Source: Alienimonas californiensis (GTDB taxonomy: Bacteria; Planctomycetota; Planctomycetia; Planctomycetales; Planctomycetaceae). Taken from it: a stretch of DNA of 64,000 nucleotides. The notes beneath the pieces are model-generated. The model did no database searches and was not told where the DNA came from. It saw only the letters and a list, made by a program, of their open reading frames with translations. The stretch is from positions 62,001 to 126,000 of the forward strand of contig NZ_CP036265.1 in assembly GCF_007743815.1 (NCBI RefSeq), read 5' to 3'. Made by a program: the position numbers and the translations under genes. Shown here in pieces: positions 30,070 through 64,000 of this stretch (within the stretch, counting starts at the first letter, position 1; the number at the start of each line of letters is the position of its first letter).

Positions 30070-31476
30070 TCAGGCCATCGCCCGGGCCATTTCGGCCTCG
30101 TAGCTGATGCCGTAGCGCTTCATCTTTTTATAAAGCGTCGTGCGATTGATGCCGAGCGTGGCGCTGGTGTCTTGGCGGTTCCAGCCGTGGGCGTGCAGGG
30201 CTTCCAGAATGATGTCCCGTTCCGCCGGGGCCATCGCCTTCTTCAGCCCCCCCGCGACCGCGGCGTGCGGACGATGGGCGGAATCATCCCGCTTGAGGCT
30301 TTCGGGCAGGTCGGCGACGGTGATCGCGTCGCCGCGGGTGAGGACCACGGCCCGCTCTACCACGTTCACTAATTCGCGCACGTTGCCGGGCCAGGCGTGC
30401 CGCTGCATGAGCCGCATCGCCTCCGGGTCGATGGAGGTCACGTTCTTGCCCGTCTGCTCGCGGAACAGCTTGAGATAGTGCTCCGCCAGCAGGGGGATAT
30501 CGCCGATCCGCTCCCGCAGCGCCGGCTGGGTGAGGGTGATGACGTTAATGCGGTAGTAAAGGTCCTCGCGGAACTCCCCGGCGGCGACCAGTTTTTCCAG
30601 GTCGGCGTTCGTCGCGAGCACCAACCGCACGTCGACCTTCTGCGTCTTCGTCCCGCCGACCGGTTCGAACTCCTTATCCTGCAGGGCCCGCAGGAGTTTG
30701 ACCTGCAACCGGGGGCTGGCAGTGGCGATTTCGTCGAGGAACAGCGTGCCGCCGTGCGCCAGCAGGAACTTGCCCTCTTTATCGTTGGTGGCGCCGGTGA
30801 AGGCGCCTTTGACGTGACCGAACAATTCGCTTTCCAGCAGGTTCTCCGGCAGGGCCCCGCAGGCGACCTCGACGAACGGCCCGCCGCTGCGGTCGCCGGC
30901 GGCGTGCAGAGCCCGGGCGGTCATCGTTTTGCCGGTGCCGCTCTCGCCGAGGATTAAGACGGTGGTGCGAGTGTCGGCGACGGATTCGATCAATTCGAAC
31001 ATCCGCTGCATGCGGTAGTCCCGCCCGATAATCCGGCCGAGTCCGTGCCGCTCGTTGAGCTGCGCCTTGAGGTTCTTGTTCTCCGTCACCACCTTGCGGG
31101 CGGCGAGGGCTTTCCGCAGGGAAAGCAGCAGTTCCTCGTAGATCAGAGGTTTGGTGAGGTAGTCCGCGGCGCCCTCCTGAATCGCTTCGACGGCGCTTTC
31201 AATCGTGCCGTAGCCGGTCAGCAGCAGGACGGCGAGGTCCGGGTATTTTTCCCGGGCGTATTCGAGAAAGCCGAAGCCGTCGCCGTCCGGCAGGCAGACG
31301 TCGCAGACGACGGCGTCGAACTTCGCCTCTTTCAGCCGCCGTTTGGCGGCGGCGAGGTCGGCGGCGACGTCGGCTTTATGGCCGTGCTCGCGGAGCAGTT
31401 CCGCCATGCCCTCGCGGACGGCGGCGTCGTCTTCCACGACCAGCACAGCGCCGGTCGGATCGGGGGTCTGAGGCAT
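30070..31476 (-). CDS. Sigma-54-dependent response regulator (NtrC family)
   Basis: The 468-residue protein has a receiver domain (1-125) with phosphoacceptor D59 in [14 protein letters not shown] and K109 in LTKPL. The AAA+ domain shows Walker A GESGTGKT (177-184), the sigma-54-contacting GAFTGA loop (224-229), Walker B TLFLDEIA and an arginine-finger region. The C-terminal Fis-type helix-turn-helix is [20 protein letters not shown]. It should activate sigma-54 promoters when phosphorylated. No histidine kinase is adjacent. Two sigma-54-like promoters occur in the window (36774 and 61402). ATG 31476 starts at the receiver domain. Confidence 0.94.
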
Positions 31477-31655
31477 CTCGGGGGGCAGGATTCGGGCGCC
31501 CCCGGGCAGGCGTTCCGGCGACCTGTGCCGGAAAGGTTGGGGGCCGAACGAACCTAGGTCGCCGTTGTCCGCTCGCAACGCGTCGGCGCCTGGGCGTGGA
31601 GAAAAGTCACCCGACGTGGCCGATTTCCCTCAAGGCCGCGGATTTCGAGGCGCCG

Positions 31656-36531: not shown

Positions 36532-36881
36532 CGGCGAGGGAGCGACGAGCGGGGGTGAAAAGCGACGGTTCAGTGGGGCCGTCATCCTATCCGCTGCACG
36601 CGGCGGGCGGGCGGAGCGGCGGAGGACCGGCAGCCGTTCAATCATCAGACTCATCAGGATCTGCCCCCGCGACGACCAGTTCGGCCGCGAATCGACCGAT
36701 CGCGTCGGTCGTCATTCCGCGGGCATCGGGCCGCCCCCCGGTTCCGGCCGCCTTTTGCCGGACGACCCGGCTTTGGCATGGCGGGTGCATTCTTAAGTCC
36801 CAGACCAGACGCTCTTCCGCCCCCCGGTCGAACGCTGTCTGGCCGCTTCATAATCATCAACTTCAAGCTCAGGACGTACCT
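36532..36881. other. 350-bp divergent intergenic region
   Basis: It separates the DUF1501 gene from the stress-type gene at 36882. I see no reading frame with support. It contains a sigma-54-type promoter at 36774-36789 and an AT-richer stretch from 36848 to 36870. Confidence 0.6.
36774..36789 (+). promoter_or_regulatory. Sigma-54 (-24/-12) promoter match
   Basis: TGGCATGGCGGGTGCA fits TGGCACG-N4-TTGCA with two mismatches and keeps the essential GG-N10-GC spacing (36775-36776 and 36787-36788). The start of transcription would be near 36800, about 80 nt before the ATG at 36882. Confidence 0.55.
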
Positions 36882-56842: not shown

Positions 56843-57825
56843 CGACGGCGTCCCTCCGCTCCGTCCTCGCCGCCGCCGGGCCGGCCCTCGCCCTCGTCGG
56901 GATCGTGGCCGGGTTCGCGTTCTTCGACTGGCAGCAGGACGGCGAGTCGACCTTCCTCACGCTGCGCAACCTGCGGGTGGCGATCGGCGACGCCCTGCCG
57001 GTCGCGGTCGCGGCGTTGGGGATGACCGTCATCATCGCCGCCGGCGGCATCGACCTCTCCGCCGGGACCATGCTGGCCCTGTGCGCCGTCGTGCTGGCGG
57101 CCGCGTTGAAGGCGGGCTGCTCCGCGGGCACGGCGGCGCTGCTGGCGGTCGCCTGCGGGGCGGCCTGCGGGGCGTTGAACGGCGTGCTGATCGCCTCGCT
57201 GGGGGTGGTGCCGTTCGTCGTCACGCTCGGCACGCTGGGGGCCTTCGAGGGGGCGGCGAAGATCGTCGCCGACGAAACCACCGTCCGCCCGGGACGCGAC
57301 GCCATCCCTGACTGGCTCGGCCGGCTCACCTCCATTCAGGGCGACTCGCTGGTCCTCGGACTGCCCCCCGGGGCGTGGGTCCTGCTGGTCCTAGCCCTCG
57401 CGGTCGCGGCCGTGTTGCGGCTGACGGTGTTCGGCCGGCACCTGTATGCGGTCGGGTCGAACGAGAAGACCGCCCGGCTGTGCGGGGTCTCCGTGGGTTG
57501 GACGAAGGTGGCGGTGTACGCCCTCGGCGGGCTGCTGACCGGGGCCGCGGGGGTGATGCAGTTCGCCCAACTGAACGCCGGCAACCCCACCAGCGGGCTG
57601 GGGATGGAACTGAAGATCATCGCCGCGGTGGTGATCGGCGGCGGCTCGCTGGCCGGCGGCCGCGGCGGGGCGTTCGGCACGCTGACGGGGGTGGCGATCG
57701 TCTCCGCGATTGAGAGCGGCGGCTTTCAACTCGGCTGGAGCAACCCGGTTCAACAGATCGCCCTGGGGGCGATCATCGTCGCCGCCGTCGCCGCCGACCG
57801 GGCCCGAGCCCGGTCTGGGGGATAA
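56839..57825 (+). CDS. Sugar ABC transporter permease
   Basis: The 328-residue RbsC-type permease has about 8-10 hydrophobic helices. Family landmarks are LTLRNLRVAIGDALPVAVAA, MTVIIAAGGIDLSAGTMLAL, VVPFVVTLGTLGAFEGAAKI, and AVGSNEKTARLCGVSVGWTK. It overlaps the ATPase gene by 4 bp (ATGA). The complete transporter probably imports a pentose or other monosaccharide released by the exported hydrolases. Confidence 0.93.
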   Translation: MTTASLRSVLAAAGPALALVGIVAGFAFFDWQQDGESTFLTLRNLRVAIGDALPVAVAALGMTVIIAAGGIDLSAGTMLALCAVVLAAALKAGCSAGTAALLAVACGAACGALNGVLIASLGVVPFVVTLGTLGAFEGAAKIVADETTVRPGRDAIPDWLGRLTSIQGDSLVLGLPPGAWVLLVLALAVAAVLRLTVFGRHLYAVGSNEKTARLCGVSVGWTKVAVYALGGLLTGAAGVMQFAQLNAGNPTSGLGMELKIIAAVVIGGGSLAGGRGGAFGTLTGVAIVSAIESGGFQLGWSNPVQQIALGAIIVAAVAADRARARSGG

Positions 57826-57901
57826 CCCGGGACGGGGTTGGAAACGACGACGTGCGGCCGCAGCGGGCGGACTGCGGTTCGGCCTCTGCTAAACTGGCCG
57901 C

Positions 57902-59134
57902 ATGCAAACTCCCGATCTCGCCCAGGACGCCCCGCATTCCGCCGCCGCTCTGTGGGCGCGGGTGGACGCGCTGGCGGAGCGGCAGATCGAAGCCCGCCGG
58001 CATCTGCACCAGTCGCCGGAGGCCAGCGGCGAGGAATGGGGCACCACGGCGTTCGTCGCCGATACGCTGACCGAGGCCGGCCTCTCCCCCCGCACCTTCA
58101 ACGACGTGCCGGGCGCCATCTGCGACGTGGACCTGGGCGAACTCCCGCCGGACGCCCTGCGGGTGGCGATCCGCGGGGATATGGACGCCCTGCAGATCTG
58201 CGAGGAAGCGGACGTTCCTTACGCCAGCGACCGCCCCGGGCTGATGCACGCCTGCGGGCACGACGCCCACACCAGTCTGGCGCTGTTCGCCGCCCTCGCC
58301 GCGGCGGAGGTCGCCGCGGACTGGGACGGCCCGCCGATCGGCCTGCGGTTCCTGTTCCAAGCGGCCGAGGAGAACGGCAAGGGGGCCCGCTGGCTGTGTA
58401 AATACGGGGCGATGAACGGCGTCTCCCACGTGCTCGCCGCTCACGTCGACCCGCACTTCCCCGCCGGAGAGGTGGGGGTGAAGGACGGCCCGCTGACGGC
58501 CTTCTGCGACGAACTGCACATCAACGTGAAGGGCCGCGGCGGCCACGCCGCCCGGCCGCACGAGAGCCGCGACCCGCTGGCGGCGGCGTGCTCGCTGGTG
58601 AACACGCTGTATAGCCTCGTCCCCCGCCGCTACGACGCCCAGTCGGCGGCCGTCATCACCTTCGGCATGCTGCACGCCGGCGGGGCTCCGAACGTGATCC
58701 CGGATAGCGCCGAACTCCGCGGCACCCTGAGGACCTTCGATCTGGCGGTGCGGGACACGATCCTCCGAACCGTCACCGAGGCCTGCGCCGGCGTGGGCGC
58801 CGCCCGAGCGGTGAGCATCGAGCCGAAGTTCGTCGGCGCCCTGGCCGGGGTGATGAACGATTCGCGTTGCACCTCCGCCCTCGCCGACGCCGCCGCCGAC
58901 CTGCTGGGGCCGGAGTCGATCACCCGGCTGACGAAGCCCAGCCTCGGCGGGGAGGACTTCAGCGGCTACCTGAAGCACGTCCCCGGAGCGATGTTCCGCC
59001 TCGGCTGCGCCCCGATCGACGGCCCGGACTACCCGCTGCACAACCCGAAGTTCACCATCGACGAACGCTGCTTGGCGATCGGCACCAAGGTGCTCCTCGG
59101 CGCCGCCGTGCGGTTGGCGACCGAATCCCGCTGA
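57902..59134 (+). CDS. M20 family amidohydrolase/peptidase
   Basis: The 410-residue enzyme fits the M20D (amidohydrolase/IAA-amino acid hydrolase) group: ARRHLHQSPEASGEE, RGDMDALQI, HACGHDAHTSLAL, FLFQAAEENGKGA, HVDPHFPAGEVGVK and a C-terminal GGEDFSGYLKHVPGAMF. Two metal ions are bound by these His, Glu and Cys residues. It lies 76 bp after the ABC transporter, on the same strand, and may be co-regulated; it could deacylate an imported amino-sugar or peptide. Confidence 0.9.
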   Translation: MQTPDLAQDAPHSAAALWARVDALAERQIEARRHLHQSPEASGEEWGTTAFVADTLTEAGLSPRTFNDVPGAICDVDLGELPPDALRVAIRGDMDALQICEEADVPYASDRPGLMHACGHDAHTSLALFAALAAAEVAADWDGPPIGLRFLFQAAEENGKGARWLCKYGAMNGVSHVLAAHVDPHFPAGEVGVKDGPLTAFCDELHINVKGRGGHAARPHESRDPLAAACSLVNTLYSLVPRRYDAQSAAVITFGMLHAGGAPNVIPDSAELRGTLRTFDLAVRDTILRTVTEACAGVGAARAVSIEPKFVGALAGVMNDSRCTSALADAAADLLGPESITRLTKPSLGGEDFSGYLKHVPGAMFRLGCAPIDGPDYPLHNPKFTIDERCLAIGTKVLLGAAVRLATESR

Positions 59135-59186
59135 CCGGACCGTCTGCCGCGAGACCGCCCGGCGACGCTCTTTCCGCCCGGCGGCG

Positions 59187-59651
59187 TTATTCCACGACCA
59201 GCGCCTGCCCCGGGTGGGCGATTTTAATCTGCGGGGCTCCGCGGTATTCGGTCACCAATCCCTGCACCAGCAGCGTTTTGCCGATGTAGGCCCGTTCCAT
59301 TGCGGCTGGGCCGCCGGGCCATTTGGCGAAGTGATCGTCGAAGATCGGGGCGGTCAGGGCCTCGTGGTAGTTCTCGGCGAAGTTCAGCACCACGACGGTC
59401 CCGCCCTCCGGCACGAACGCGGCGGTGCAGCGGCCCCGCACCGCCTTCACCGTGCCGACGTGACCCCGCAGCGCCTCCAGGTCGCGCGCGTCCAGCGGGG
59501 CGAGGGCCTCCGCCGCGGCCGCGGCGATCGTCGGCGGCTCGAATGGCTGGACCGCCCGCTCCGCAAACGGCGGCTGCACGCCGGTCGCGGCGTTCTCAGA
59601 TTGATACTCCCCGCCGAACAGGGCGAGGCAGAGGACGGCGGGGGCGAACAT
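59187..59651 (-). CDS. Exported OB-fold-like protein
   Basis: The 154-residue product has a short signal-like start (MFAPAVLCLALFGG), an Ala-rich linker, then a beta pattern: LRGHVGTVKAVRGRCTAAFV, TVVVLNFAENYHEAL, YIGKTLLVQGLVTEYRGAPQ. The order resembles small exported OB-fold proteins ('nucleic-acid-binding OB-fold, tRNA/helicase type'). Its gene starts 11 bp after the beta-CASP gene, so the two are probably an operon. Function is not known. Confidence 0.65.
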   Translation of the reverse strand: MFAPAVLCLALFGGEYQSENAATGVQPPFAERAVQPFEPPTIAAAAAEALAPLDARDLEALRGHVGTVKAVRGRCTAAFVPEGGTVVVLNFAENYHEALTAPIFDDHFAKWPGGPAAMERAYIGKTLLVQGLVTEYRGAPQIKIAHPGQALVVE

Positions 59652-59662
59652 TTCGTCGGTCT

Positions 59663-61186
59663 TTAGCTGTCGAGTTCCGCGAAGTCGTCGGCCCGCCGCT
59701 CCGGCAGGGTCGGGGCGGGGCCGGGGGCGAACCGTTCGCCGGTCACCTCGAAGCTCTGCCCCTCTCGCGGAGCGTGGGCCTGCACGCCCATCGCGGTCGC
59801 CCCCGCGGCCATCTCCGCGGCCCGGTCCGGGTCGCCGTGCACGACGTACGCCGGGCCGACGGAGTCGAACCCGCCCAGCCAGTTCAGGATCTGCTGCCCC
59901 TTCGCGTGGCTGGAGAAGCCGGACAGCGTGTCCACTTCCAGCTTCAATTCCCGTACGTCGTAGCGGGTCGGCCCGAAGCGTTCCTCGATCGGCAAACGCA
60001 TCGGGCTCTCGCCAGATCGGACCCGGTGGCCGACGGAGCCGGGCGCCTGATAACCGATGAGGAACACGGCGTTCCGCGGGTCCTCCGCCAGGCGGGAGAG
60101 GTGCTTGGGGGCGGCGGCGTGGTCCAGCATGCCGCTGGTGGACAGATAGATCGCCGGCCCGTTCCCGTGGGTCAGCAGCGTGTCGTCGTCGCGGGCCTCG
60201 TAAAATCCGGGGCGATAAAACAGCGTCCCCCCGCGGGCGGCGCGGGCGGCCTTCGCCGCCGGGTCGAGATACTGGGGGAAGGCGTCGTAGATCGCCGTCG
60301 CCTGCTGGGCGGAGGGGCTGTCGCAGAAGACCGGCACGTCCCGCGGGATCACGCCGTCCTCCCGCAGGCCGTGGAACAGGTGGATGAGCGTCTGCGTTTT
60401 ATGCAGGGCGAAGGTCGGCAACAGCAGACTGCCGCCGCGATCCAGCACGGCCCGCACGCGGCGGCCGAACGCCTCGTAGTTCGCCGCGGCGCCCCGGACG
60501 GCGCCGTAGGTGCTTTCAAACAGCACGGCGTCGGCGTCCCGGTGCTGCGTCGGGTCGCAGAGGAGCGGAGCGCCGTCCGGGCCCATGTCCCCGCTGAATA
60601 GGATCTTTCGCCCGTCCGCCCAAATCTCGATCATCGCCGAGCCGAGGATGTGCCCGGCGTCGGTATAGCGGCAGTCGACGCCGCTTTTGGAGAGACGCCG
60701 GTTATAAGGCACGACTTCGACCAGTTCGAAGCTCTTTTGCTGATCGCGGCGGCCGTACAGCGACCTCCCCTCCCCCTCCCCGACGGTCAGGGAACTGCGG
60801 AGTGTCGCCCGGTTCAGATCCCGGGTGGCGTCGGTGCAATAAATCGGCCCACCGAAGCCCTGCTTGACCAACAACGGCAGCCGGCCGTTGTGATCGGCGT
60901 GGGCGTGCGTGAGGAAGACGGCCCGCACCTCCTTCGGATCGAAGGGGAAGGATGCGTTCTCGTCCCGGTCGGGGGTGTCCGACATGAACAGGCCGCAGTC
61001 GATCAGATACAGCCCCCGCGACGTCTCCAACAGGTGGCAGGACCCGCTGACGCGGCCGACGGCGCCGTAGAAGGTCAGCGAGGGATTCCGCCGCCGGCGG
61101 ACCGTCGCGTCCGCCGGTACGCCCGCCGAGAGCGCCGCGAGGCCGGCCGCCGACGCCGCGGCGAGAAACTGGCGGCGATTCGACAC
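59663..61186 (-). CDS. Tat-exported beta-CASP metallo-beta-lactamase-fold hydrolase
   Basis: The 507-residue protein begins at a GTG with a Tat-type leader (NRRQFLAAASAAGLAALSAG). The metallo-beta-lactamase core has HAHADH at 94-99, ILFSGDMGPDG and a GHILGSAMIEI segment. The beta-CASP part follows: VLFESTYGAVRG, LLLPTFALHKTQTLIHLF, GMLDHAAAPKHL, GFSSHAKGQQILNWL and VHGDP. That arrangement is the one in RNA-processing enzymes of the CPSF73/RNase J type, which normally work in the cytoplasm. Here export with metals bound is implied. Confidence 0.85.
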   Translation of the reverse strand: MSNRRQFLAAASAAGLAALSAGVPADATVRRRRNPSLTFYGAVGRVSGSCHLLETSRGLYLIDCGLFMSDTPDRDENASFPFDPKEVRAVFLTHAHADHNGRLPLLVKQGFGGPIYCTDATRDLNRATLRSSLTVGEGEGRSLYGRRDQQKSFELVEVVPYNRRLSKSGVDCRYTDAGHILGSAMIEIWADGRKILFSGDMGPDGAPLLCDPTQHRDADAVLFESTYGAVRGAAANYEAFGRRVRAVLDRGGSLLLPTFALHKTQTLIHLFHGLREDGVIPRDVPVFCDSPSAQQATAIYDAFPQYLDPAAKAARAARGGTLFYRPGFYEARDDDTLLTHGNGPAIYLSTSGMLDHAAAPKHLSRLAEDPRNAVFLIGYQAPGSVGHRVRSGESPMRLPIEERFGPTRYDVRELKLEVDTLSGFSSHAKGQQILNWLGGFDSVGPAYVVHGDPDRAAEMAAGATAMGVQAHAPREGQSFEVTGERFAPGPAPTLPERRADDFAELDS

Positions 61187-61515
61187 GAACGGACACCCCG
61201 CGGGAGAGACGGCGGCAAGCTCGCCGTCACCCTATCGCCGCCCCGTTCCACCGGCGAGGCGGCGGTCGATGAGGAATCGAAGAACCGTCGTCACTCTGAC
61301 GACGCACGATACGGAAGAGAGACGGTTCAGTTGGCCGTCGGCACGACGAAATGCGTGAAGAACGGCCACGTTCCTACGGTTACGAAGTGTCGAGCCGGTT
61401 TTGGCACGCCAAATGCAAATCTGACACGTGCCGGCGACGCTCGAGGGTCGAGTCGCCGGGCCCGCGACGGACCCTCCCCCCTCTCACCACTCCGAGTTCC
61501 GATAGGATCGACCCG
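61187..61515. other. 329-bp divergent intergenic region
   Basis: The region separates the beta-CASP gene from the Gly/Tyr-rich protein gene. It contains a sigma-54-type promoter at 61402-61417 reading rightward. I see no other feature that I would support. Confidence 0.6.
61402..61417 (+). promoter_or_regulatory. Sigma-54 (-24/-12) promoter match
   Basis: TGGCACGCCAAATGCA fits TGGCACG-N4-TTGCA with one mismatch and exact GG-N10-GC spacing (61403-61404, 61415-61416). Transcription should start near 61428, about 88 nt before the ATG at 61516. It is the best sigma-54 match I saw in the window. Confidence 0.62.
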
Positions 61516-61890
61516 ATGAACATTCTCAAGCCCACCGCCGCCGCCGCCATGCTGGCCGGGGCCTTCGCTTTTGGCGGCGCTCCGGAGACCGCCGAGGCCG
61601 GCGGCTTCTCCCTCCAAATCGGCCGCCCGGCCTACGGCAGCTACTACGGCGGCTACAACCGCGGGTACCGCAGTTTCAACCGAGGGTACTACGGCGGAAA
61701 CCACTTCGGTCACGGCGGGTACTACGGCGGCGGATACGGCGGGACCAGTGTGTACCACGACACCTCGCACGTGGACGTGATTAACGGCCGTCCGGTGTAC
61801 CACCAGTCCGGTCACTTTGACTACTACGGCCCCGGCCACTTCGGCGGTCACGGCGGCTTCGGCGGCCACAGCGGCCACGGCCATCACTGA
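61516..61890 (+). CDS. Exported Gly/Tyr/His-rich protein
   Basis: The 124-residue product has a signal peptide (MNILKPTAAAAMLAGAFAFG, cleaved near AEAGG). The mature part is a low-complexity chain of Gly, Tyr and His with GYYGG, YGGGYGG and GHGGFGGHSGHGHH repeats, and a conserved-looking middle HVDVINGRPVYHQSGHFDYY. Similar low-complexity exported proteins coat surfaces or bind metals. A sigma-54-like promoter lies upstream and a strong terminator downstream, so it is a single-gene transcript. Confidence 0.78.
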   Translation: MNILKPTAAAAMLAGAFAFGGAPETAEAGGFSLQIGRPAYGSYYGGYNRGYRSFNRGYYGGNHFGHGGYYGGGYGGTSVYHDTSHVDVINGRPVYHQSGHFDYYGPGHFGGHGGFGGHSGHGHH

Positions 61891-61912
61891 GCGCCGACCG
61901 AACGGTCGAACG

Positions 61913-61949
61913 AAAAAAGCCCCGGCGTCTCCGTGACGCCGGGGCTTTT
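61913..61949. terminator. Bidirectional rho-independent terminator
   Basis: AAAAAAGCCCCGGCGT pairs with ACGCCGGGGCTTTT around CTCCGTG. An A-run precedes and a T-run follows the perfect stem, so it works in both directions. It ends the Gly/Tyr-rich gene on the right-reading side and galT on the left-reading side. This is the clearest terminator in the window. Confidence 0.93.
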
Positions 61950-61993
61950 ATCTTTGTGCGTCTCTTCCTTCCGCTGCGACGAGGACCGCCCCG

Positions 61994-63052
61994 TCAGCCG
62001 GCTTTGCGGACCTTGACGGCGGGTTCGTCGGCGGCAGCGCGGCCGTAGTTCTGCGGCACGTCGACGTTCCGCAGAAACTCCGCGGCCTCCTCCGGCGGAA
62101 CTGGGTTGATATAGAACCCGCTGCCCCACTCGAATCCGGCGACCCGCGTCAGCCGCGGGAACACCTCCAGATGCCAGCGATAGTGCGGCAGTTCCGGCGT
62201 GTCGAACGGGGCCGTGTGCAACACGTAGTTGTACGGCGGGTCGTCCAGGGCCAGCTCGAGCTTCGACAGCGTGGTCTTCAACACCCGGGCCAGCGAGGCG
62301 ATCTGGGCGTCGGAGCTCGTCTCGTAGTGACTGGCGTGGTGCTTGGGGATGATCCAGGTTTCAAAGGGGAACCGGGAGGCGAACGGGCAGACGGCGGCGT
62401 AGTCCGCGGTCTCCAGCACGACCCGCTCCCGGGAGTCCAGCTCCTGATCCAGCATGTCCTGATAGACGCACCGGCCGCGGTAGTTATAGAACTCCAGGGC
62501 GCCGGTCATCTCCTCCCACACGCTGATCGGCACCACGCTGGTGACGATGAGTTGGCTGTGGGCGTGCTCCAGGCTGGCGCCGGCCAGGGCCCCCTTGTTC
62601 TTGAAGATCAGGGCGTGCACCAGCCGCACGTCCCGTTTGAGGTCCAGCAGGCGGTCCTTGTAGGCGCCGAGCACCTCGCGGACGTTGTCGACCGGCAGGC
62701 GGGCGAGGCTTTCCTCGTAGTGCGGGCACTCAATGACGACCTCGTGGGCGCCGACGCCGGTCATCGTGTCGTACAGGCCCACGCCCCGCTTCTTTAATTC
62801 CTCGTCGGTCCGCAGTGCGGGGAACTTGTTCGGCACGACCCGCACCCGCCAGCCGGGGCCGTTGGGGGCGCTGTCGGAGGAGCGGAACGCCAGAATTTCC
62901 GGCGGGGTCAGGCCCTCGTTCCCCTCGGCGAAGGGGTCGAGGCGGTCGGAGGCGAGGCGGAACACCGGCTCGTGATGCACCGGCCGCTTGGCGCGGTCCG
63001 GGGCGATGATGACCCACCGGCCGGTCACGGGGTCCTTGCGCAGGTCGCTCAT
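61994..63052 (-). CDS. galT: Galactose-1-phosphate uridylyltransferase
   Basis: The 352-residue enzyme exchanges UMP between UDP-glucose and galactose-1-phosphate (Leloir pathway). It shows [20 protein letters not shown] at the start, [11 protein letters not shown], the active-site SLEHAHSQL with H163 and H165, [17 protein letters not shown], and [16 protein letters not shown]. The N-terminal zinc-binding CPxC of many relatives is replaced by DPFAEGNE (39-46), so the structural zinc is probably missing. The gene for a GH57-like protein lies upstream on the same strand, 111 bp away. Confidence 0.92.
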
Positions 63053-63116
63053 AGTCTTAACGCGGTTTGTAGGAAGGCGGGAGGGGCGAGGCGGACGGCG
63101 TAAGTCAGGAGCGACG

Positions 63117-63151
63117 GGGGGCGAAGCGCCGACGCCTTGCGCCTCGCCCCC
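63117..63151. repeat. GC-rich hairpin between galT and the GH57-like gene
   Basis: The 13-nt arms 63117-63129 and 63139-63151 pair with one mismatch around a 9-nt loop. It follows the GH57-like stop and may terminate or process that message. Its sequence also resembles the GC-rich repeat families of the window. Confidence 0.5.
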
Positions 63152-63163
63152 GGTATGCTTACC

Positions 63164-64000
63164 TCACGCCTGCCAGCGTTCGCGTTCGAAATCGGCGTTG
63201 GGGCACTCCAAACGGATGCTGCCCTCGCGGGGGGCGCGGTCCTCGCTGGATTCGCCGCGGACCGCCTCCACCGCGAAATGCACCGGGTCGCCCGGCTCCA
63301 CGCCGAGGTCCGCCAGCGGCACGGTCAACTCGAAGATCCGGTCCAGCCCGACCCGCGGGTCGGCGCTCTTCACCGCTTTGCCCCCGCGGATCACCTTGGC
63401 GACGGGCGTGCCGTCGCCGAGGTCAGTGACGCGAATCTCCACGCCCTCCGGGTCCTGGAACCGCACCCGCAGGGCGTCCAGACCGGCGAGGTCGTCGGCG
63501 GCGCGGTCGTTCGTGTCCACCCGCAGGCAGAAGCGGCCTCCGCCGTCCTCCACCGTGCCGGGGGTCAGGTCGAAGCCGAACAGCGCCTCCTGAATCAGCC
63601 CGTCCGTGACGATGGCCATCGTGCCGCGGTCGTTGCCGGGGGCGTACTTGCCGGCGCTGACCCACTCGAAATAGGTGGGTCGCCCGTTGGGGGTGGCGCT
63701 GACGAAGCCGGTGGGCAGCGTGTGCGTCTGCTTGGGCTCCGCGTTCGTGATGGGCACGTCGAGGTTCGCCGGCGGATCGCCGCCGAGCAGCTTATAGACG
63801 TTCCGCAGGTGCCGGCGGAACAGGTCGTCGAACAGGTCGTCCTGCCCGCTGCTGCGGTCGTCGCCGTACCACCAGAACCAGTCGGAACCCTCGGCGATAT
63901 ACAGTTCCTCCCAGGCCTTCTTCACCGCCTCGGGGTCGGCGTCCTCGGCCTCCGCGGCCTTGAGGTATTCGCGGGTTTCGTGCAGGCGGTCCCAGCCGTC
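63164..64000 (-). CDS. C-terminal part of a GH57-type glycoside hydrolase (5' end outside the window)
   Basis: The frame is open to the right edge, so only the last 278 residues are seen. KKAWEELYIAEGSDWFWWYG, followed by DDRSSGQDDLFDDLFRRHLR, is the hallmark of GH57 enzymes of the amylase/amylopullulanase group. The next 180 residues are a beta-rich C-terminal domain. The GTG at 63925 lies inside this conserved part, so it is not the start. It is upstream of galT and on the same strand, and the two probably belong to one sugar-metabolism unit. Confidence 0.8.
   Translation of the reverse strand, partial: DGWDRLHETREYLKAAEAEDADPEAVKKAWEELYIAEGSDWFWWYGDDRSSGQDDLFDDLFRRHLRNVYKLLGGDPPANLDVPITNAEPKQTHTLPTGFVSATPNGRPTYFEWVSAGKYAPGNDRGTMAIVTDGLIQEALFGFDLTPGTVEDGGGRFCLRVDTNDRAADDLAGLDALRVRFQDPEGVEIRVTDLGDGTPVAKVIRGGKAVKSADPRVGLDRIFELTVPLADLGVEPGDPVHFAVEAVRGESSEDRAPREGSIRLECPNADFERERWQA

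Follow-up and report, generated by a model that had tools for sequence, protein, structure and literature searches.

The window analysed here is a 64-kb stretch of planctomycete DNA (genome G000). One of its genes encodes a small exported protein and is preceded by a promoter element of the sigma-54 type and, farther upstream, by a dyad. The features at this locus are as follows, in window coordinates.

59663-61186, minus strand: divergent neighbour of the window gene, encoding a beta-CASP metallo-beta-lactamase-fold protein
61285-61305, plus strand: dyad upstream activating sequence, CCGTCGTCA-CTC-TGACGACGC, the proposed site of an enhancer-binding protein
61402-61417, plus strand: sigma-54 -24/-12 promoter element, TGGCACGCCAAATGCA, read directly and kept in relatives
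61428-61515, plus strand: predicted 88-nt leader, its start placed by the usual -12 spacing
61516-61890, plus strand: coding sequence (124 codons) of an exported Gly/Tyr/His-rich protein of 124 amino acids, the window gene
61915-61949, plus strand: intrinsic terminator with a 15-pair stem and a T-rich tail
61994-63052, minus strand: next gene downstream, galactose-1-phosphate uridylyltransferase-like

The promoter element, TGGCACG-CCAA-ATGCA, departs from the consensus at a single base (A for T in TTGCW) and has its GG (61403-61404) and GC (61415-61416) exactly 10 bases apart, as an earlier note on this DNA had claimed. The GC of a sigma-54 element sits at -13/-12, and this spacing convention puts the predicted +1 at about 61428, 88 nt before the ATG at 61516; the -24 element is 101 nt from the ATG. 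The earlier note had placed the element 88 nt plus a short leader before the gene, of which the 88 nt stands and the extra leader falls away, because part of the distance was counted twice and the leader itself is the 88 nt. A structured-RNA leader was rejected, since RNA structure in these 88 nt was not significant (z scores of 1.33 and 0.08), and a longer frame beginning at 61351 was not taken as the gene because it spans the promoter. The strong terminator described after the gene is present with the stem and tail listed above. Elsewhere in the window another good sigma-54-like element, TGGCATGGCGGGTGCA (36774-36789, plus strand), lies about 108 nt upstream of a 345-codon frame starting MATATTDRTARDTVVGVFHSHAEAQKAVRDLKAAGF, and no dyad was found there.

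By itself, the sigma-54 motif does not exceed chance. When up to two mismatches were allowed, TGGCACG-N5-TGCA gave 13 matches in the 64-kb window against 18.6 expected, the one match without mismatches being, by construction, the promoter site itself. A genome scan with the pattern TGGCACGNNNNNTGCW gave no excess (5 genome matches against 18 for the backward control). What lifts the site above chance is its conservation in relatives together with the linked upstream dyad.

A profile search found matches to the protein family in 30 of 397 genomes of the class. In G001, a genome of the same genus, and G021, one of the same family, the relatives have GG-N10-GC elements 98 and 92 nt before the ATG. 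Across 200-nt upstream regions the best -24/-12 score, its weights set from the consensus and not from a published matrix, beat dinucleotide shuffles (p<=0.05) at 29 of 30 loci. The mean best score at these loci was 14.6 on the forward strand, 9.5 on the other strand and 9.6 when read backwards; the 30 training loci include the near-identical L041/L042/L047/L049 and L045/L046 and also L055, a weak match without the His motif. A promoter score of at least 13 was reached by 39 of 48 family genes in Planctomycetota, against 5 of 159 control genes, the latter drawn from the flanks of L072-L100 only. The marks of a sigma-54-dependent promoter are found in the retention of the GG-N10-GC element upstream of relatives and in the presence of RpoN and AAA+ activators in the genome, which has one Sigma54_DBD gene (RpoN) and 18 Sigma54_activat matches over cut-off, ten of them strong. 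The comparison with relatives thus strongly supports the central claim of the earlier note, a sigma-54 promoter before an exported low-complexity protein.

Reading the upstream regions yielded a feature that the earlier note lacked and that adds to its sigma-54 claim, a dyad with the consensus GTGTCRTCA-N3-TGAYGACAC. The window copy (61285-61305) lies 117 nt before the -24 element and has the best matrix score in the window, 18.3. Of the nine spacer lengths tried, those of 3 and 0 were conspicuous and that of 6 was slightly over-represented. By a matrix fitted and refined on the same 30 loci, the dyad is present at 27 of the 30 relatives' loci, 26 times at 96-141 nt and once at 161 nt before the -24 element. 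The mean dyad score was 15.3, against at most 8.9 when the matrix was refitted on shuffled sequences, and sites scoring at least 12 numbered 23 of 26, against at most 4 of 26 in 40 shuffled refits. A scan of named genomes supplied 29 loci with titles naming planctomycetes, including Gimesia, Rhodopirellula, Rubripirellula, Aeoliella, Bythopirellula and Adhaeretor. For the hold-out test L092 was dropped for its short upstream region, and 10 of 28 loci overlapped the training set and were excluded from the count; in the 18 hold-out loci (L072-L074 are related to training loci, and the start of L096 is doubtful) the dyad was found at 14, the promoter at 13 and both at 12 (shuffles, p<=0.05). Dyad or promoter is absent from some relatives among the 30 training and 18 hold-out loci.

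Distances from dyad to -24 element peak at 97 and 116-118 nt (45 sites), and some loci have two copies about 20 bp apart, so that comparison shows about 97 or 117 nt as the commonest distances between the putative enhancer and the -24 element, and an enhancer that is sometimes doubled. Such a layout is that of enhancer sites for sigma-54 activators, for which tandem copies are expected; an activator site would be sought about 80-200 nt upstream, where the conserved dyad, a putative binding site, lies. It is highly probable, from these sequence comparisons, that the site is the sigma-54 promoter of a conserved planctomycete regulon.

Dyad cores with at most one mismatch occur at 21 places in the window's own genome, against 2 for the control. 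Three of the 21 have a matrix score of at least 15, and each of these is followed, 115-120 nt downstream, by a sigma-54 element (scores 16.9, 16.9 and 12.6) and then by a gene for an exported Gly/Tyr/His-rich protein. Dyad and promoter stand before at least four genes of this genome, every one of them encoding an exported protein with a high content of His or of Gly, Tyr and His; apart from the window gene these are the following.

G000:C1:3366034 (start), minus strand: paralogue of the window gene, ending GHYDYHAPEIVPHGDHLDVTPGHYDFHQSHR, with dyad and promoter
G000:C1:1007894-1008223, plus strand: exported Gly/Tyr/His-rich protein with a weaker promoter (12.6)
G000:C1:3345822-3346622, plus strand: exported HAGHDH-repeat protein, found by a gapped pattern

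The paralogue was found through the dyad, earlier protein searches not having reported it, and the protein at 1007894-1008223 is without the conserved His motif. Within 155 kb of DNA from this genome, consisting of the window and seven stretches of which two were chosen to hold the paralogue and the HAGHDH gene, a dyad of at least 10 with an element of at least 14 was confined to these two genes and the window gene. The other 18 near-exact dyads were not counted as regulon sites, weak or ill-placed elements being among them. Elements at non-regulon dyads score 13.2 at L069 (dyad 4.4), 12.15 at L065 and L059, and 12.0 at L279, and no exported low-complexity gene was recognised downstream of these four. 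A further dyad (L067, G000:C1:2457885-2457901), scoring 12.8, precedes an exported 275-codon frame containing GYGHHGSIHP; its sigma-54 match is poor (10.65, 191 nt on).

Gapped dyad-plus-promoter patterns had matches in at least 186 and at least 177 of 397 genomes and are noisy. In a rescan of 16 genomes picked for many pattern matches, five of 91 loci (L101-L191) lie before exported low-complexity proteins (L149, L161, L174, L183 and L184), and the others were judged to be chance or not placeable. A dyad and a sigma-54 element precede exported Tyr/Asn-rich (L184, genome G254), Gly/Tyr-rich (L174, G082) and Gly/Lys-rich (L149, G319) proteins. Judging from these three loci the regulon may reach beyond the His-motif family, and some dyad-linked proteins in other genomes are not especially His-rich.

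The window protein is exported and Gly/Tyr/His-rich, as had been described, to judge from its composition, its 124 codons and a Sec-type signal ending AEA/GG (about 61516-61599, read by eye). Its C terminus has a His motif, HDTSH-x-D ... H ... GH ... PGH ... H, and six of the nine invariant columns in a 17-row family alignment are His. No family was found for it in Pfam up to E 0.1 or in NCBIfam up to E 1, and the family profile had no sequence match in the PDB. Two candidates with matches in His-rich stretches were rejected: the pneumococcal histidine-triad model, with a sub-threshold match to a relative (10.5 bits against a cut-off of 33), and the zinc uptake protein ZrgA, with a match to the HAGHDH protein (17 bits against a cut-off of 185). 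The AlphaFold model of the window protein has a mean pLDDT of 49.2 and a pTM of 0.18; the protein is predicted to be mostly disordered, and no metal site can be modelled in this low-confidence structure. We infer from its sequence an exported, flexible, metal-binding protein.

Two of the regulon genes in this genome have metal exporters beside them. The HAGHDH gene adjoins two CDF-family genes, and about 4 kb from it are a CusA/CzcA-family pump gene above the curated cut-off and a CusB/HlyD-type adaptor. The paralogue is upstream of CzcC-, CzcB- and CzcA-like genes on the same strand, with a divergently read His-repeat gene between it and the CzcC-like gene; in this cluster the TolC/CzcC-like gene falls below the model cut-offs, the RND adaptor is above them and the CusA/CzcA-family pump reaches 1185 bits against a cut-off of 701. 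The His-repeat gene (L254:9883-10398, plus strand, the same as L009:302-817) encodes an exported protein with VPHTTTHYDAVPH-type histidine repeats and has neither a good sigma-54 element nor a dyad in the 300 nt upstream. The relative in G005 adjoins a similar Czc cluster, the CzcA being 65% identical, and the stretch around the second copy in that genome has only a weak pump-gene match at its edge; in G004 the nearest such genes to the relative are a CDF-like one at about 7 kb and a CzcA-like one at about 10 kb. The metal link is suggestive and not general, because the immediate neighbours of the window gene are not metal genes and the tested pump genes are absent from 15 of 18 stretches around relatives (17 genomes), two stretches (G005 and G004) having pumps. 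For the metal binding that the earlier note proposed there is circumstantial support in the six invariant His of the 17 rows and in the two regulon genes beside Czc/CDF exporters. We put a metal role of the regulon proteins at even odds. In G005 a dyad scoring 17.3 and a weak sigma-54 element (12.8) lie beyond the CzcC-like gene (L261:10240-11340) and are followed by two overlapping frames that by eye are IS-transposase-like, not by a His-rich gene, as if an insertion had parted a promoter from its target.

The Gly/Tyr richness could instead mark structural or adhesive matrix or surface proteins, with histidines that serve adhesion or assembly rather than metal homeostasis. All four regulon products of this genome are exported and of low complexity, the window protein is predicted to be disordered, the L184, L174 and L149 dyads precede proteins of like kind, and sigma-54 has been proposed as a controller of the cell exterior (PMC3162934). 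However, the most conserved columns are mainly histidines, two of the regulon genes adjoin metal exporters and no known domain was found in the scanned proteins, and on balance we consider a matrix role unlikely. The surface coat of the earlier note is neither supported nor contradicted, no known domain being found and the protein being mostly disordered by prediction.

ZraP of Salmonella and E. coli, controlled through ZraSR, is a small exported protein associated with metals and governed by sigma-54 together with an enhancer-binding protein, so that such control of a metal-binding export is known (PMC4987338). Unlike ZraP, the window protein has no Pfam or NCBIfam match and no neighbouring sensor/activator pair that could be found, is of low complexity and is encoded by a type of gene present several times in this genome. 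Neither a known family model nor an adjacent sensor and activator assigns it to the ZraP family; no sensor or activator gene was recognised by eye among the window ORFs of 57000-64000.

Alternatively, the regulon might be the output of a two-component system that answers envelope stress in general, the metal genes adjoining it by chance or because metals bring about such stress. ZraR uses sigma-54 in its response to both zinc and envelope stress, and another sigma-54 response regulator, GlrR, has a site, TGTC-N10-GACA (PMC4987338), that is close to the TGTC-N11-GACA of the dyad. The GlrR sites at glmY resemble the dyad in having TGTC...GACA half-sites upstream of a sigma-54 promoter. In contrast, the dyad has a spacer of 11 with conserved inner RTCA/TGAY, and its matrix scores the glmY sites low (best in the region 4.5). 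The activator with a GlrR-like tail, L019, was rejected as the binder of the dyad, since 15 of 27 dyad genomes lack a close orthologue (E<=1e-10); with this and the spacer of 11, the site and activator type of a GlrR regulon are not those found. G161, G055 and G090, which lack a close orthologue of L019, belong to a single genus with G109, G071 and G248, which have one, and the promoter is much the same. For the L019 tail, a threshold of E<=1e-10 gave matches in 12 of the 27 dyad genomes and in 0 of 23 genomes without a family match, and one of E<=0.001 gave 17 of 27 against 14 of 23. We judge the envelope-stress reading unlikely. The NtrC dyad is TGCACCA-N3-TGGTGCA, and the planctomycete dyad has the same 7-3-7 geometry, the inner CA-N3-TG and tandem copies about 100 nt upstream; it differs from NtrC sites in its outer bases and in its targets, which are not nitrogen genes. 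A chance occurrence of the motif, with the gene served by another promoter, agrees with motif counts no higher than controls in window and genome, but is opposed by the conservation, the hold-out test, the control genes and the own-genome predictions, as well as by a simple scan of 60600-62600 that gave no sigma-70-like promoter, and is extremely improbable.

Candidates for the dyad-binding activator come from the genome's ten strong matches (L010-L019), one of which is encoded in the window.

30070-31578, minus strand: candidate sigma-54 activator L017 (receiver, AAA+ and HTH), by sequence judgement and a PF00158 match

For L010, L012, L013, L014, L015 and L017, reciprocal best matches were found in each of three other dyad genomes (G004, G088 and G133), and these six remain candidates; the best 30 activator loci of those genomes were compared, so that the absence of the other four activators is weak evidence. 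No dyad scoring at least 9 was found near L010-L019 or rpoN. When nine of the ten activators were compared by tblastn with the flanks of the relatives, the single match, at L095, was weak (32% across 109 residues).

The explanation that we favour, with a probability of about 0.6, is a sigma-54 regulon for disordered exported proteins that probably bind metals. Its fullest form is more tentative, at somewhat less than even odds: a dedicated enhancer-binding-protein/sigma-54 regulon, present across a large part of the class and having its own tandem dyad, whose conserved output would be disordered, rapidly diverging His/Gly/Tyr-rich proteins, secreted as metal sponges and working beyond the inner membrane together with Czc/CDF exporters. 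An enhancer-binding protein, one of the about six conserved candidates, would bind the dyad once an input triggers it and would loop to the RpoN-polymerase waiting at -24/-12, switching the genes on. Once secreted, into the periplasm or farther out, the proteins could bind transition metals through their histidines and would serve as a buffer or sponge for metal, some of them alongside Czc/CDF exporters, an arrangement much like that of ZraP with ZraSR. We infer the metal binding, the signal and the activator; a dyad dedicated to these genes agrees with the earlier suggestion that a specific signal calls for the protein.

The machinery is known. Planctomyces limnophilus rpoN complements a Salmonella mutant (PMC3906078, citing Leary 1998), and for Rhodopirellula baltica rpoN has been noted, as has a single proposed sigma-54 promoter upstream of a thioredoxin gene (PMC2754498). 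A study of 2025 predicted sigma-54 promoters in Planctomycetota and noted ZraR-type regulators (PMC12316311); among the matches listed, the targets in the part of that source available include the COG families MscS, T2SS, chaperones, UspA and CsrA, and differ in that the His-rich exported family and the shared dyad are absent. No literature on the regulon or the family was found by title or abstract start among the matches listed, subscription journals being mostly outside the scope, and the dyad, the regulon and the protein family are thus without a description found. Planctomycete gene regulation is little known, and the affected genes are small and of low complexity, with no family model for them in the libraries searched. 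Through the DNA switch that they share, such genes gain a common function that can be tested. Dyad and promoter together predict further members, of which this genome has three besides the window gene, and the activator and signal thereby become searchable. If the metal role is true, metal handling in planctomycetes would have an unrecognised layer in the periplasm or outside the cell.

Two other strict sigma-54 elements were observed in this genome. One (L006:1501-1516) lies 84 nt before a gene for a DnaJ-like chaperone, in line with the chaperone enrichment reported for Planctomycetota (PMC12316311). The other (L007:1501-2071) precedes the gene for an exported Ala/Pro/Tyr-rich protein and has no dyad of the GTGTCRTCA-N3-TGAYGACAC type; this gene adjoins a PAS histidine kinase and the activator L019, and together they perhaps constitute a second sigma-54 system for the cell exterior.
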